DNA of 64,000 bases, taken from Solirubrum puertoriconensis (GTDB taxonomy: Bacteria > Bacteroidota > Bacteroidia > Cytophagales > Hymenobacteraceae). The stretch covers positions 806,001-870,000 of the forward strand of contig NZ_LNAL01000008.1 of the NCBI RefSeq assembly GCF_001483135.1. Direction: 5' to 3'. Shown here one piece after another: positions 1-40,625 of the stretch; positions within the stretch are counted from its first letter, which is position 1, and each line of letters opens with the position of its first letter. Below the pieces are notes generated by a model. The model was not told where the DNA came from. It did no database searches and was given only the letters and a program-made list of their open reading frames with translations. The translations under genes were made by a program, and so were the position numbers.

Positions 1-55
1 GCAGGCCGAAAAGCTCGTGCGTGACTTCATCACAGCCGAGTTGGCAATTGTCTGA
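1..55 (+). CDS. gmk: Guanylate kinase, C-terminal end (partial)
   Basis: The window opens inside an open frame that reads QAEKLVRDFITAELAIV and stops at TGA 53-55. The stop overlaps the ATG of nadD (TGATG), so the two genes are translationally coupled. The helical ending with KLVRDFI resembles the C-terminus of bacterial guanylate kinases (GMP + ATP to GDP + ADP), and gmk next to nadD is a common order in Bacteroidota. Only 17 residues are visible, so the name rests mainly on context. Confidence 0.55.
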   Translation, partial: QAEKLVRDFITAELAIV

Positions 56-642
56 TGAATACCCCGCGGCGTGTGGGGCTGCTTTTCGGCTCCTTCAATC
101 CCATTCATACCGGACACCTGATTGTGGCTAACCACATGGCCACGCACACCGACCTTGATGCGGTGTGGCTGGTGGTGTCGCCGCAGAGCCCGTTTAAGGT
201 GGGAGAGGAGTTGTTGCCCGAGCAGGAGCGCTTGGCTATGGTAAACCTAGCCATTACTGGCAACCACAAACTGCAAGCCTCGGATGTGGAGTTTGATATG
301 CCCCGCCCGAGCTACACCATCGATACCCTCGACGAACTGCGTGCCCGCCATCCGGGTACGCAGTTCGTGCTTTTAATGGGCGGCGACAATTTGCCGGGGC
401 TTCCTAGGTGGAAAGCGGCCGAGCGCCTGCTTAGCGAGATAAGTATTTACGTGTACCCAAGGCCCGGCGAAGTGCTCCCGAGCGAGTTGCCCAACAACGT
501 ACGCATTGCAAGTGCTCCTTTGCTCGATATCTCGGCTACGTTCGTTCGCAACAGTGTGCGGGCAGGCAAATCGGTTCGCTACCTCGTGCCCGATGCTGTA
601 TTACAGCGTATCAACGAAGCTGGTCATTGGCGCACCTCCTAG
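55..642 (+). CDS. nadD: Nicotinate-nucleotide adenylyltransferase NadD
   Basis: 195 aa. Catalyses nicotinate mononucleotide + ATP to deamido-NAD in cytoplasmic NAD synthesis. The N-terminus carries the nucleotidyltransferase signature GSFNPIHTGH (about residues 12-21), and the C-terminal ISATFVR (about 163-169) is the ISSTxIR-type ATP-binding motif. Length is normal for the family. The ATG overlaps the upstream stop in a TGATG junction, which fixes the start. The TAG stop lies inside the long palindromic terminator that separates this gene from the convergent frr. Confidence 0.96.
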   Translation: MNTPRRVGLLFGSFNPIHTGHLIVANHMATHTDLDAVWLVVSPQSPFKVGEELLPEQERLAMVNLAITGNHKLQASDVEFDMPRPSYTIDTLDELRARHPGTQFVLLMGGDNLPGLPRWKAAERLLSEISIYVYPRPGEVLPSELPNNVRIASAPLLDISATFVRNSVRAGKSVRYLVPDAVLQRINEAGHWRTS

Positions 643-708: not shown

Positions 709-1272
709 TTAGATCGTCATGATCTCGGCTTCCTTCTTGCTCATCAAGTCGTCGATCTTTACGATGTAGCTATCGGTGTATTTCTGCACCTTGGCTTCAG
801 CATCCTTAACGGCATCCTCCGAGGCGCCGTCTTTCAGCAGCTTACGCAACGACTCATTCACGTCTTTGCGGATACCGCGAATGCGGATTTTGCCGTTTTC
901 AGCCTCATTTTTTACTTGCTTCACCAGGTCGCGGCGACGTTCCTCCGTCATGGGCGGCAGGTTCAGGCGTACCGAGTCAGCATCCATTACTGGGTTTAGG
1001 CCTAGGTCACTGTTTTTGATGGCCTTCGAAATTTCACCCAGCATGTTTTTTTCCCAGGGGCGGATAACCAGCGAGCGGGCATCGGGAGCCGAAACATTGG
1101 CTACCTGTGCTACCGGGGTGGGGGAGCCGTAGTAATCTACGCGCAACGAATCGAGCATGGTCGGGGTGGCTTTACCAGCCCGAATGCGCGACAACTCGGT
1201 GTTGGTGTGCTGCAGGGCTTTGCCCATCGACTCCTCGGCGTCGCTCAGGTACAGCTGAATTTCTTCGTCCAC
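709..1272 (-). CDS. frr: Ribosome recycling factor
   Basis: 187 aa, the standard RRF length. It splits post-termination 70S ribosomes together with EF-G. The sequence has the typical RRF features: the LSRIRAGKATP segment near the N-terminus, a middle VRLNLPPMTEERR and a C-terminal helix ending in DDLMSKKEAEIMTI. It lies about 65 bp downstream of pyrH on the same strand, the usual pyrH-frr pairing. Its stop abuts the palindromic terminator shared with nadD. Confidence 0.97.
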   Translation of the reverse strand: MDEEIQLYLSDAEESMGKALQHTNTELSRIRAGKATPTMLDSLRVDYYGSPTPVAQVANVSAPDARSLVIRPWEKNMLGEISKAIKNSDLGLNPVMDADSVRLNLPPMTEERRRDLVKQVKNEAENGKIRIRGIRKDVNESLRKLLKDGASEDAVKDAEAKVQKYTDSYIVKIDDLMSKKEAEIMTI

Positions 1273-21362: not shown

Positions 21363-21779
21363 ATGCCAACCATCAACCAACTAGTGCGCAAAGGGCGCGA
21401 GAAGTTGACGACGAAATCTAAGTCGCCGGCTCTCGATTCCTGCCCACAGCGCCGTGGTGTGTGCACCCGCGTGTACACCACTACGCCCAAGAAGCCGAAC
21501 TCGGCTATGCGTAAAGTAGCTCGCGTACGCCTGACCAACGGCAAAGAGGTTAACGCCTACATCCCGGGTGAAGGCCACAACTTGCAGGAGCACAGCATCG
21601 TGCTGATCCGCGGCGGTCGTGTGAAAGACCTTCCCGGTGTGCGTTACCACATCATCCGCGGTGCCTTGGATACTGCCGGTGTAAACGGTCGTCTGCAGCG
21701 CCGTTCGAAGTATGGTGCCAAGCGTCCGAAGCCGGGTCAACCGGCCGCAGCAGCTGGCAAAGGCGGTAAGAAAAAGTAA
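21363..21779 (+). CDS. rpsL: Ribosomal protein uS12
   Basis: 138 aa. Decoding-centre protein. The classic segments [33 protein letters not shown] and [17 protein letters not shown] are intact; streptomycin-relevant lysines in TPKKPN and near RVKDLPG are present as in sensitive strains. First gene of the str operon; the tail is Ala/Gly/Lys-rich. Confidence 0.98.
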
Positions 21780-21791
21780 TTAGGTAGTAGG

Positions 21792-21866
21792 GGGCTGAAT
21801 GACGGCCACGGGTCTGAGTAATACGCTATGAAGCGTGTGAAGCTAGGCCGTAAGATAGTTCAGCCC
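21792..21866 (+). promoter_or_regulatory. Structured rpsL-rpsG intercistronic RNA, candidate S7 control site
   Basis: Three nested stems: GGGCTGAA (21792-21799) with TTCAGCCC (21859-21866); ACGGCC (21802-21807) with GGCCGT (21846-21851); ACGCT (21823-21827) with AGCGT (21832-21836). In enterobacteria S7 binds the rpsL-rpsG spacer to control the str operon. The same place and a multi-stem fold suggest, but do not prove, a similar role here. Confidence 0.5.
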
Positions 21867-21885
21867 ACGAGACTCCTCATATACC

Positions 21886-22353
21886 ATGAGAAAAGCAAAA
21901 CCGAAAAAGCGTATCCTCCTGCCGGACCCCAAGTTCGGTGAGACGCTGGTAACCCGTTTCGTAAACTACCTGATGTACGACGGCAAGAAGAGCTTGGCGT
22001 ACAACATCTTTTATGATGCTCTGGAGCAGGTAGAAGCACGCACCAAGGAGAACGGCCTGGAGCAGTGGCGCAAAGCCCTGAACAACGTGATGCCGACCGT
22101 AGAAGTAAAGAGCCGCCGCGTAGGTGGCGCTACCTTCCAGGTTCCTACGGAAGTTCGCCCCGACCGTCGCATTGCCGTTGGCTCGAAGTGGCTGATTCAA
22201 TTCTCGCGTCGCCGAGGCGAGAAAACGATGAAAGATAAGCTGGCTGGCGAAATCATCGCTGCCGCCAAAGGTGAAGGTGCGGCCGTTAAGAAAAAAGACG
22301 ACACCCACCGGATGGCTGAAGCCAACAAGGCCTTCTCGCACTTCCGCTTCTAA
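21886..22353 (+). CDS. rpsG: Ribosomal protein uS7
   Basis: 155 aa, the usual length. Binds the 3' major domain of 16S rRNA and lines the E site. Typical: [36 protein letters not shown], and the C-terminal [15 protein letters not shown]. Lies 106 bp after rpsL and before the fusA leader hairpin. Confidence 0.98.
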
Positions 22354-22370
22354 TTTAAGGAATTTGGGTG

Positions 22371-22431
22371 CTTGGGGACTTTCGGACTGGAGTTGTTGTT
22401 GAGTAGCAATTCCAATCCAAGAGTCCCCAAG
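22371..22431 (+). promoter_or_regulatory. Large imperfect hairpin between rpsG and fusA
   Basis: Arms 22371-22395 and 22407-22431 pair at 23 of 25 positions when two G-U pairs are allowed, over an 11-base loop (TTGTTGAGTAG). It ends 21 bases before the fusA ATG. Because the arms are near copies, both strands encode nearly the same peptide. It may be a control element or a remnant of a small repeat. Confidence 0.6.
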
Positions 22432-22452
22432 TTCCTAAGACCCCATACTGAC

Positions 22453-24588
22453 ATGGCCGTCAACGAAAACCTGAAGTATCTCCGTAACATCGGGATTATG
22501 GCGCACATCGACGCCGGTAAGACCACGACGTCGGAGCGCATTCTTTACTACACGGGTAAAACCCACAAAATCGGGGAAGTGCACGAAGGTGCCGCCACGA
22601 TGGACTGGATGGAGCAAGAGCAGGAGCGTGGTATTACCATCACCTCGGCTGCTACTACTACCTTCTGGAACTACCCCACGGTGCAGGGCGAATCGACGCC
22701 TGAGACCAAGCAGTACAAAATAAACCTGATTGACACCCCGGGCCACGTTGACTTCACCGTAGAAGTTGAACGTTCGTTGCGCGTGCTCGACGGTGCCGTT
22801 GCTCTGTTTTGCGCTGTATCGGGCGTAGAGCCGCAGTCGGAAACCGTATGGCGTCAGGCCGACAAATACAAAGTACCGCGCATCTGTTTTGTAAACAAAA
22901 TGGACCGCGCTGGTGCTGACTTCTTCAAAGCCGTAACGGAAATCAAAGACAAGCTGGGCGCTAACCCCGTGCCGTTGCAGATTCCGATCGGTGCTGAGGA
23001 CACCTTTAAGGGCGTAGTTGACCTGCTGACTGGCAAAGCCATCGTGTGGGACGATGCTACTCAAGGTAAGACCTACAAAGAAGTTCCGGTTCCCGAGGAC
23101 CTCGTTGATACTGTACAGGAATGGCGTGAGAAGCTCGTTGAAAGCGTTGCTGAATACGACGACACCCTAATGGAGAAATTCTTTGAAGATCCGGACAGCA
23201 TTACCCGCGAGGAGATGATGGACGTGATCCGCAAAGCGGTTATCGACATGAAGTTCTCGCCGGTGATGTGCGGTTCGGCCTTCAAAAACAAAGGTGTTCA
23301 GGCTATGCTTGACGCCGTTATGGCCTACCTGCCTTCGCCGCTCGACATGCCCGCCATCATCGGTACCAACCCCGACACTGGTGAGGAAGTAGAGCGTCAT
23401 CCCGACAATGACGAGCCCTTTACGGCTTTGGCGTTTAAGATTGCCACCGACCCCTTCGTAGGTCGTCTGTGCTTCTTCCGCTGCTATTCTGGTCAGCTGG
23501 AGTCGGGTTCGTACGTGTTTAACAACCGTACGGGCAAGAAAGAGCGCATCTCACGTCTGATGCAGATGCACTCCAATAAGCAGAACCCGATCGACAAGAT
23601 CCAGGCTGGCGACATTGCTGCCGGCGTTGGTTTCAAAGACATCAAGACTGGTGACACGTTAACGGAAGAGAAAGACCGCCTCGTTCTCGAGTCGATGTCG
23701 TTCCCCGAGCCTGTAATCGGCTACGCTATCGAGCCTAAGACCCAGGCCGACGTAGACAAGATGGGTATGGCTATTGCCAAGCTCGTGGAAGAAGACCCCA
23801 CGCTGACGGTATTCACGGACCCTGAGACGGGCCAAACGGTACTGCGCGGTATGGGTGAACTTCACTTGGAAATCATCATCGACCGTATGCGTCGCGAGTT
23901 CAAGGTTGAAATCAACCAGGGTGCTCCGCAGGTAGCTTACAAGGAGATGATTACCAAGAAAATCGAGCACCGCGAAGTTTATAAGAAGCAGACGGGTGGT
24001 CGTGGTAAATTTGCTCACATCGAGTTTGAACTCGGCCCGAAAGAAACCGAGCCGGAGAAACCCGGCCTGGAGTTCGTCAACGGTATTACGGGTGGTGTTA
24101 TTCCGAAAGAATTCATCGCTCCGATCCAGAAGGGCTTCGAAGAAGCTATGAAGAGCGGCGTACTTGCCGGCTTCCCACTGGATTCGATGCGTGTGAAGAT
24201 CTACCACGGTTCGTATCACGATGTGGACTCGGACGCTCTGTCGTTCGAAATGGCAGCTCGCCTTGGCTACAAGGAAGCAGCTCCTCGTTGCGCTCCTAAG
24301 CTGCTCGAGCCCATTATGGCCGTTGAAGTAGTGTCGCCTGACGAGTACACGGGTCCGGTAACGGGTGACCTAAACCGTCGCCGCGGCATCATGAAGGGTA
24401 TGGACACCAAAGCTGGTGCTCAGGTTATCAAGGCTGACGTTCCGCTGTCGGAGCTGTTCGGCTATGTAACTGACCTACGTACCATCTCTTCGGGCCGTGC
24501 TTCGGCTTCGCTGACCTTCTCGCACTACGAACAGGTACCGCAGAACCTCGCCGAAGGCATCATCGCCAAAGTAAAAGGCGGTAAGTAA
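22453..24588 (+). CDS. fusA: Elongation factor G
   Basis: 711 aa GTPase for translocation and, with RRF, ribosome recycling. G1 motif AHIDAGKT at residues 17-24; DTPGHVDF (G3) and NKMD (G4) are present, as are domain IV ([14 protein letters not shown]) and the C-terminal [20 protein letters not shown] chose the ATG at 22453 ([12 protein letters not shown]) because the upstream in-frame start at 22372 would translate the leader hairpin. Confidence 0.98.
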
Positions 24589-24612: not shown

Positions 24613-24918
24613 ATGAACCAGAAAATTCGCATCAAACTGAAGTCTTACGATCATAACCTCGTCGACAAGTCGTCGGAGAAGATCGTAAAGGCGGTGAAAG
24701 CAACGGGTGCCATCGTAAGCGGCCCGATTCCTTTGCCGACGGAAAAAGAGAAGTTCACCGTTCTCCGTTCGCCCCACGTGAACAAGAAGTCGCGTGAGCA
24801 ATTCCAGCTCTGCACCTACAAGCGCCTCGTGGATATCTACTCGACTTCGTCGAAGACGGTAGATGCCCTGATGAAACTCGAACTGCCGAGCGGCGTTGAC
24901 GTAGAAATCAAAGTCTGA
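24613..24918 (+). CDS. rpsJ: Ribosomal protein uS10
   Basis: 101 aa. Start at ATG 24613 ([15 protein letters not shown]), the normal S10 N-terminus; an upstream in-frame ATG (24592) is unlikely. Usually rpsJ leads directly into rplC; here it is followed by a strong terminator and an unrelated gene, so it belongs to the str transcript. Confidence 0.97.
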
Positions 24919-24934: not shown

Positions 24935-24974
24935 AAAAAGCCCCACTGGTGAAAACCAGTGGGGCTTTTTATTT
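24935..24974 (+). terminator. Strong terminator after rpsJ
   Basis: 16-bp perfect arms (24935-24950 and 24955-24970) around a GAAA tetraloop, with A-run before and T-run after. It ends the str transcript and separates rpsJ from the rest of the S10 cluster. Confidence 0.93.
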
Positions 24975-40568: not shown

Positions 40569-40625
40569 GAGCCGGCTGCTGCCTGAGATTTATCTTGGGC
40601 AGCAGCCGGCTCCTGTATGGTTTCT
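40569..40625 (+). terminator. Hairpin between rpsD and rpoA
   Basis: Perfect 15-bp arms (40569-40583 and 40598-40612) over a 14-base loop, followed by a T-rich but not continuous tract. Likely an attenuator that sets the ratio of S4 to RNA polymerase alpha. Confidence 0.7.

Follow-up and report, generated by a model that had tools for sequence, protein, structure and literature searches.

An intercistronic hairpin between rpsG and fusA of Hymenobacter in which structure is kept while sequence is replaced

In the group I intron of the Nostoc tRNA-Leu(UAA) gene, the P6b stem is built from either of two classes of repeats, TDNGATT or NNTGAGT, that swap whole while the stem stays in place (PMC4476775). 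Short intergenic repeats of a different kind, the TAACTGA heptamers, occur in Beggiatoaceae, cyanobacteria and five Bacteroidetes, and a regulatory role has been proposed for them (PMC4679880). The stem-loop analyzed here, which lies between the genes for ribosomal protein S7 (rpsG) and elongation factor G (fusA) in Hymenobacter, is the same thing as neither of these systems, nor is it a Correia (NEMIS) or a REP element.

The P6b stem resembles the rpsG-fusA stem in that pairing is kept, unrelated short-repeat motifs make up the stem and whole stems are replaced among relatives; however, P6b belongs to a self-splicing intron and consists of 7-nt repeats of two classes, whereas the rpsG-fusA stem is part of an intercistronic mRNA region and comes in several types made of words of ~8 nt as well as in types that lack obvious repeats (PMC4476775). 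The TAACTGA repeats share with our locus an intergenic position, including positions within ribosomal-protein operons and, in a Beggiatoaceae genome, upstream of fusA, but they are direct repeats of one word rather than an inverted stem kept across a genus, and Hymenobacter is not named in the available sections of that study (PMC4679880). The Correia elements of Neisseria are likewise inverted repeats located beside genes, and RNase III binds them and either cuts or protects them, but they are mobile, with a conserved core and many copies (PMC2649163). REP elements are extragenic palindromes with a hypothesized role in mRNA stabilization, but are high-copy, 20-40 bp long and carry GTAG or CGTC tags, whereas the rpsG-fusA stem is longer and single-copy (PMC3733652). 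Many near-identical copies, as in REP elements, or dispersed copies with conserved termini, as in MITE and Correia elements, were not found in the eight genomes of the genus: the stem occupies one place in the source genome (G000) and at most one in each of the others, and the swapped types share no common termini. Among the titles and opening abstract lines from a literature search with little coverage of subscription journals and preprints, we found no account of the Hymenobacter rpsG-fusA hairpin.

The stem-loop in the source genome

The DNA analyzed, hereinafter the window, is a stretch of 64,000 nucleotides within contig C8 of a 4.8 Mb genome that we call Hymenobacter-like, since its S7 protein and that of Hymenobacter gummosus share 99% identity. 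The names of L2 and rpoB are backed by family searches; for the other genes, including rpsL, we take the names from protein sequence and gene order. The features relevant to the stem-loop, all on the plus strand, are the following.

21363-21779, plus: rpsL (presumably ribosomal protein S12), an open reading frame that served as the tblastn query
21782-21877, plus: second, weaker stem-loop, from the fold of the rpsL-rpsG gap (21780-21885)
21886-22353, plus: rpsG (ribosomal protein S7), an open reading frame with homologs in 150 of 150 family genomes
22359-22443, plus: whole intercistronic stem-loop, 35 pairs in the minimum free energy (MFE) fold of the gap
22364-22395, plus: 5' arm, from the strand-neutral alignment of the arms (the source genome is locus L015)
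22396-22406, plus: apical stretch of 11 nt, the flanks of which pair in the MFE fold, leaving a 5-nt loop
22407-22438, plus: 3' arm, from the same alignment
22444-22452, plus: unpaired leader that links the stem to the fusA start codon and is 9 nt long in the MFE fold (14 nt if counted from the 3' arm of the strand-neutral alignment)
22453-24588, plus: fusA (elongation factor G), an open reading frame
24613-24918, plus: rpsJ, 24 nt after fusA

The rpsG-fusA gap of this genome is 99 nt long and folds as a single hairpin, with a predicted energy of -49.0 kcal/mol when folded alone. The region 22340-22460 has an MFE of -51.6 kcal/mol compared to a mean of -30.35 for dinucleotide shuffles (z-score of -5.6, with 0 of 200 shuffles as low), and mononucleotide shuffles of the gap yield z-scores of -7.6 and -8.3. 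An earlier note on this DNA had reported a large hairpin before fusA, and a hand count of 22371-22395 against 22407-22431 reproduces its 23 paired positions out of 25 (21 Watson-Crick and 2 G-U) around the 11 bases 22396-22406; the structure is in fact larger than the note had it, the main stem extending over 22364-22438. Across the 32 positions of the complete arms, there are 25 Watson-Crick pairs, 4 G-U, 2 A-C and 1 other combination.

The same note had suggested either a regulatory stem for EF-G or one copy of a dispersed repeat. For the source genome, the second suggestion turned out to be wrong: a search with 81 bases of the hairpin retrieved one true place. The best of three weaker matches (35 bases, 86% identity, E-value of 0.001) had no second arm nearby and was taken as chance. 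A pattern derived from the inner arms is found at one place per genome, at rpsG-fusA only, in seven of the eight genomes of the genus; the remaining genome (G003, locus L019) lacks the arm pattern, and a different hairpin fills the same gap. The dispersed-repeat proposal fares better elsewhere, in that the same position in other Hymenobacter is taken by hairpins composed of octamer words, which some of the genomes carry in dispersed form. As for the first suggestion, the comparison across species described below supports a selected RNA stem, one that may or may not act on EF-G.

Distribution and replacement across Hymenobacter

The S7 protein was found in all 150 sampled genomes of the family, and we read the rpsG-fusA gap in 70 of these (loci L013-L082) and in 80 named records (L083-L162). 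The Hymenobacter set consists of 50 genomes of the genera g1 and g5 and 18 named records (L083-L100), that is, 68 loci with 60 distinct gap sequences, some species being represented twice. In all 68 loci, the gap is 93-120 nt long and is predicted to form a hairpin, with a fold energy of -22 to -69 kcal/mol and 27-46 pairs in the main hairpin. In all 27 loci from sister genera (L063-L082 and L101-L107, comprising 20 genomes of g2, g3, g4 and g6 and 7 named Pontibacter and Rufibacter records), the gap is 1-7 nt. Among the 55 more distant records, the gap was measurable in 44, of which 39 have up to 42 nt and five (L127, L137, L138, L147, L154) more than 90 nt. The simplest history is that the hairpin was gained only once, before Hymenobacter (sensu lato) diversified, in a gap that had until then been short. 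Gaps of 228-493 nt in three Dyadobacter loci (L137, L138, L154) apparently represent a separate expansion outside Hymenobacter.

The stem fills the gap nearly completely. Across the 60 distinct sequences, it starts a median of 3 nt past the rpsG stop codon (range 0-10) and ends a median of 12 nt upstream of the fusA start (range 3-21), leaving a short leader that is mostly A/C-rich by eye.

The sequence of the stem is far less constant. Average-linkage clustering separates the gaps into seven rough types, including hairpins with GGGTCTTA-like word arms, hairpins with GAATGAGT-like word arms and others without evident words. On a FastTree phylogeny of 62 non-identical loci and 9 outgroups, which is based on little sequence (about 1 kb from rpsL, rpsG and fusA) and in which some placements, such as that of L031, look doubtful, these types require 19 parsimony steps, one of which is the outgroup split, that is, approximately 18 changes. 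Every type change among the loci read leads to another hairpin, never to loss.

Several pairs of close relatives capture such replacements. The loci L018 and L019 are 99.8% identical in rpsG and 98.4% in the start of fusA, with gaps that are 34% identical; for L021 and L022, the corresponding values are 98.1%, 96.3% and 36%, and the rpsL-rpsG gap is 100% identical. A less clean case is that of L042 and L050 (rpsL 99.7%, rpsG 93.2%, fusA start 81.2%, gap 40%). The identities between swapped gaps are not above those of shuffled gaps, which average 49% with a different aligner, and the exchanged stretch reaches almost from the rpsG stop codon to the fusA start. In L019, fusA begins with ATGGCTGTTAA, a sequence found in 34 of the 59 g5 loci and in none of the 8 other loci of the group to which L019 belongs; given these donor-like bases, the swap may have come from another Hymenobacter lineage through recombination in the flanking genes. 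At rpsG-fusA, close relatives exchange the entire stem motif and retain pairing, and we regard the confirmed hairpin, with its kept structure and replaced sequence, as a real feature of a single bacterial genus, and an unusual one. The reading offered in the earlier note is supported in this respect, a hairpin being predicted across the genus, and fails with regard to a second copy in the source genome.

Selection on the fold or recurrent mutation

To compare the two arms without favoring RNA pairs, every mismatch was scored alike in the alignment, and mismatches were sorted afterwards. On the transcribed strand, the 60 distinct rpsG-fusA gaps contain 1543 Watson-Crick pairs, 144 G-U, 48 A-C and 149 other combinations, although the gap sequences are related, so that the ratio of 144 to 48 overstates independence. 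When the sequences are clustered at 70% identity, G-U exceeds A-C in eight of the nine clusters, with a tie in the ninth; clustering at 60% merged nearly all sequences into 2 clusters and had no power. The claim that the mismatches of this hairpin are of the kind that keeps RNA pairing applies to two of the four imperfect positions originally noted in the source genome, which are G-U, but not to the other two, which are C-A, and it is across species that it holds. In the rpsL-rpsG gaps (57 distinct), there are 91 G-U and 61 A-C, with G-U more frequent in 8 of 12 clusters, less frequent in 1 and tied in 3.

The surplus of G-U relative to A-C is in keeping with selection for pairing in the RNA, although fourfold-degenerate sites (T 2606 vs A 731, C 3336 vs G 2415) leave strand-biased mutation as a possible source of it. 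Covariation is modest: RNAalifold finds double changes in 3 of 32, 3 of 28 and 2 of 35 pairs in three clades, within which one-sided changes that keep the pair outnumber double changes and several pairs are broken in some species.

The words that make up many of the hairpins are abundant in some genomes. With at most one mismatch, GAATGAGTGAATGAGTGA matches 112 times in G097, 87 times in G016 and once in the source genome (21 of the 28 genomes searched have matches), and CTTAGGGTCTTAGGG matches 121 times in G097 and not at all in the source genome (14 of 28 genomes); a reversed control pattern yields 0-2 matches per genome. The words also occur outside Hymenobacter, as in the g3 genome G068, and a hairpin may use a word that is rare in its own genome: the only match to the second word in G134 is located in the rpsG-fusA gap. 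At 20 places in G016 and G097, chosen for a plus match with a minus match close behind it, most spacers have the word array on one side and its complement on the other; the choice itself fixed the order of the words. Some of the bracketed spacers (L183-L202, from the two Hymenobacter genomes) contain nested palindromes, for example GTCATTGCGAGC...GCTCACAATGAC.

Structured gaps are not confined to rpsG-fusA, and rpsG is flanked by stem-loops on both sides. In the source genome, the rpsL-rpsG gap has a fold energy of -37.6 kcal/mol (z-score of -2.5, with 4 of 200 shuffles as low), and this gap is 79-111 nt long, with an MFE of -24.6 kcal/mol or lower, in all 68 Hymenobacter loci. It contains a sequence-conserved core in many g5 species (the GGATAGCACATGGTTCTTATCCCACT type), a different core in the genus of the source genome and hairpins of the heptamer word AGTTGTC in other species. 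Most gaps of the S10 and spc operons in the source genome are shorter than 30 nt; longer gaps of 60-379 nt separate nusG-rplK, rplJ-rplL, rplL-rpoB, rpoB-rpoC, rpsL-rpsG, rpsG-fusA and the genes of the series rpsM-rpsK-rpsD-rpoA-rplQ. The same long gaps recur in four other Hymenobacter genomes, with widely varying structure (z-scores of about 1 to -8). Among the five genomes compared, rpsG-fusA has z-scores of -6.0 to -10.7 in all, and rpsL-rpsG ranges from -1.4 to -7.9, being weak in some. Two additional structured gaps occur in G097, at infA-rpmJ and rpmJ-rpsM. Between fusA and rpsJ, 17 of the 18 named Hymenobacter records have 20-46 nt, and L099 has 100 nt. In the Pontibacter-type g3 genome G068, the gaps at nusG-rplK, rpsL-rpsG, rpsG-fusA, rpsM-rpsK and rpsK-rpsD are short, and the rpoB-rpoC gap is structured.

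Several gaps of the alpha operon are long in Hymenobacter. In the window, the 120-nt rpsD-rpoA gap (z-score of -7.5) contains a hairpin with 21-nt arms that are 90% complementary (40569-40612).

These observations bear on the strongest rival explanation, namely that the hairpins have a mutational origin without function, the gap being an old insertion site for dispersed palindromes of 7-8-nt words, with near-perfect hairpins arising there again and again through slippage, through template switching from arm to arm (quasi-palindrome correction) and through recombination between lineages. Several of the hairpin types at rpsG-fusA are indeed built from words of the GAATGAGT and GGGTCTTA kind, which in some genomes far exceed the reversed-pattern control, often as inverted pairs, and which bracket spacers in most of the 20 chosen places; the donor-like fusA start in L019 is what plain recombination predicts, and the long spacers elsewhere (rpoB-rpoC, the alpha operon, the additional gaps of G097) suggest that some of what is seen may be due to insertion pressure alone. 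However, correction of one DNA arm on the template of the other should leave equal numbers of G-T and A-C mismatches, contrary to the 144 and 48 counted above, whereas the 20 dispersed octamer hairpins of G016 and G097 contain 66 and 83, a control in which the direction of transcription is unset and a bias could cancel. Moreover, none of the 68 Hymenobacter loci lacks a hairpin, and the source genome retains its stem with 1 and 0 matches to the two words. Conversely, G068 has 41 matches to the GAATGAGT word and yet a 3-nt rpsG-fusA gap with no hairpin, so that dispersed words alone do not create one. On balance, we regard a purely mutational origin as unlikely, albeit well ahead of the other alternatives.

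Possible roles of the stem

The reading that we favor, with a probability of roughly 0.55, is that the rpsG-fusA gap encodes a long intercistronic mRNA stem-loop that is kept for its fold, not its sequence, and acts on the rpsG-fusA message in a sequence-independent manner, a function that we infer from predicted folds. A swappable sequence combined with a constant helix fits agents that read double-stranded RNA or meet it as an obstacle, such as RNase III, exonucleases and ribosomes. Most likely, the stem would be cut by RNase III or would block 3'-to-5' decay, and the rpsG and fusA messages would thereby gain separate ends and stabilities; it could also keep ribosomes that leave rpsG from continuing into fusA, and the second, weaker hairpin before rpsG might free rpsG at the other end. 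Stems processed by RNase III are long double helices of about 20 or more pairs. The source genome encodes RNase III, and all 60 distinct gaps are predicted to reach this length, many with bulges or mismatches. If any long stem suffices, it could be exchanged whole, rebuilt by slippage or assembled from dispersed octamer words.

Somewhat short of even odds, in our estimate, is the claim that the str operon throughout Hymenobacter needs an rpsG-fusA stem of ~35 pairs, which lineages repeatedly replace whole, by import or by palindromes of short repeats, with selection seeing only the double helix. If this account is correct, the locus would be a natural case of an RNA fold inherited in place while its sequence is replaced, and would provide a direct test of how far bacterial mRNA processing needs structure alone. 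It would also show how an essential operon can acquire parts from short repeats and by recombination, and searches by sequence homology or with covariance models would miss such elements.

An autoregulatory site, with translation repressed by S7 (or EF-G) bound to the hairpin, appears improbable. S7 acts in this manner on the str message of E. coli, the hairpin adjoins rpsG in the str operon, and in many species the neighboring rpsL-rpsG gap contains a core of conserved sequence. The swapped hairpins, however, do not share any conserved sequence such as would be expected of a ribosomal-protein leader, and a sequence mimic of the rRNA site is not apparent either, the resemblance to 16S rRNA being unconvincing (80 of 200 shuffles of the rpsL-rpsG gap and 13 of 200 of the rpsG-fusA gap score as well). 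No Rfam family reaches its gathering threshold at the site; at E-values of up to 5, the only matches there are to miRNA-precursor models below gathering (the best being mir-337, with 29.6 bits against a threshold of 80 and an E-value of 0.002), which we read as matches to any long stem. Across the window, only tRNAs reach gathering, and the stem is not located in a group I intron.

Still less probable is transcriptional termination or attenuation, which would reduce fusA levels in comparison with rpsG. Such a role would suit a strong stem between two cistrons, and a terminator-like site does follow rpsJ (24935-24970), but there is no T-run after the stem in the source genome, no intrinsic terminator is listed at 22359-22452, and upstream of the fusA start, other species mostly have the A/C-rich leader noted above. 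No sigma-70-like promoter is listed at the site either, although promoters of Bacteroidota deviate from this consensus, and one may exist there.

The nearly identical peptide that the earlier note read on both strands does correspond to open reading frames (22372-24588 on the plus strand and 22350-22541 on the minus strand) but is a by-product of the palindromic arms. As a kept feature, a coding sequence, be it for a small peptide or for additional N-terminal residues of EF-G, is refuted by the gap comparison despite the frame that is open from the TTG at 22372 into fusA in the window: only 2 of the 60 distinct sequences keep the fusA frame open across the gap, and the gap lengths are distributed almost evenly modulo 3 (20/18/22), so that we assign virtually no credence to this explanation.

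Two further observations concern other regions of the genome. The lowest-energy 100-nt hairpin in a scan of the window (-69.7 kcal/mol) is a perfect 35-bp palindrome with a 2-nt center at 636-707, located between the converging open reading frames 55-642 (plus strand) and 709-1272 (minus strand). In addition, a partial second match to 16S rRNA is found near the end (766905) of contig C3, at G000:C3:766202-766890, perhaps reflecting an assembly break at an rRNA operon.
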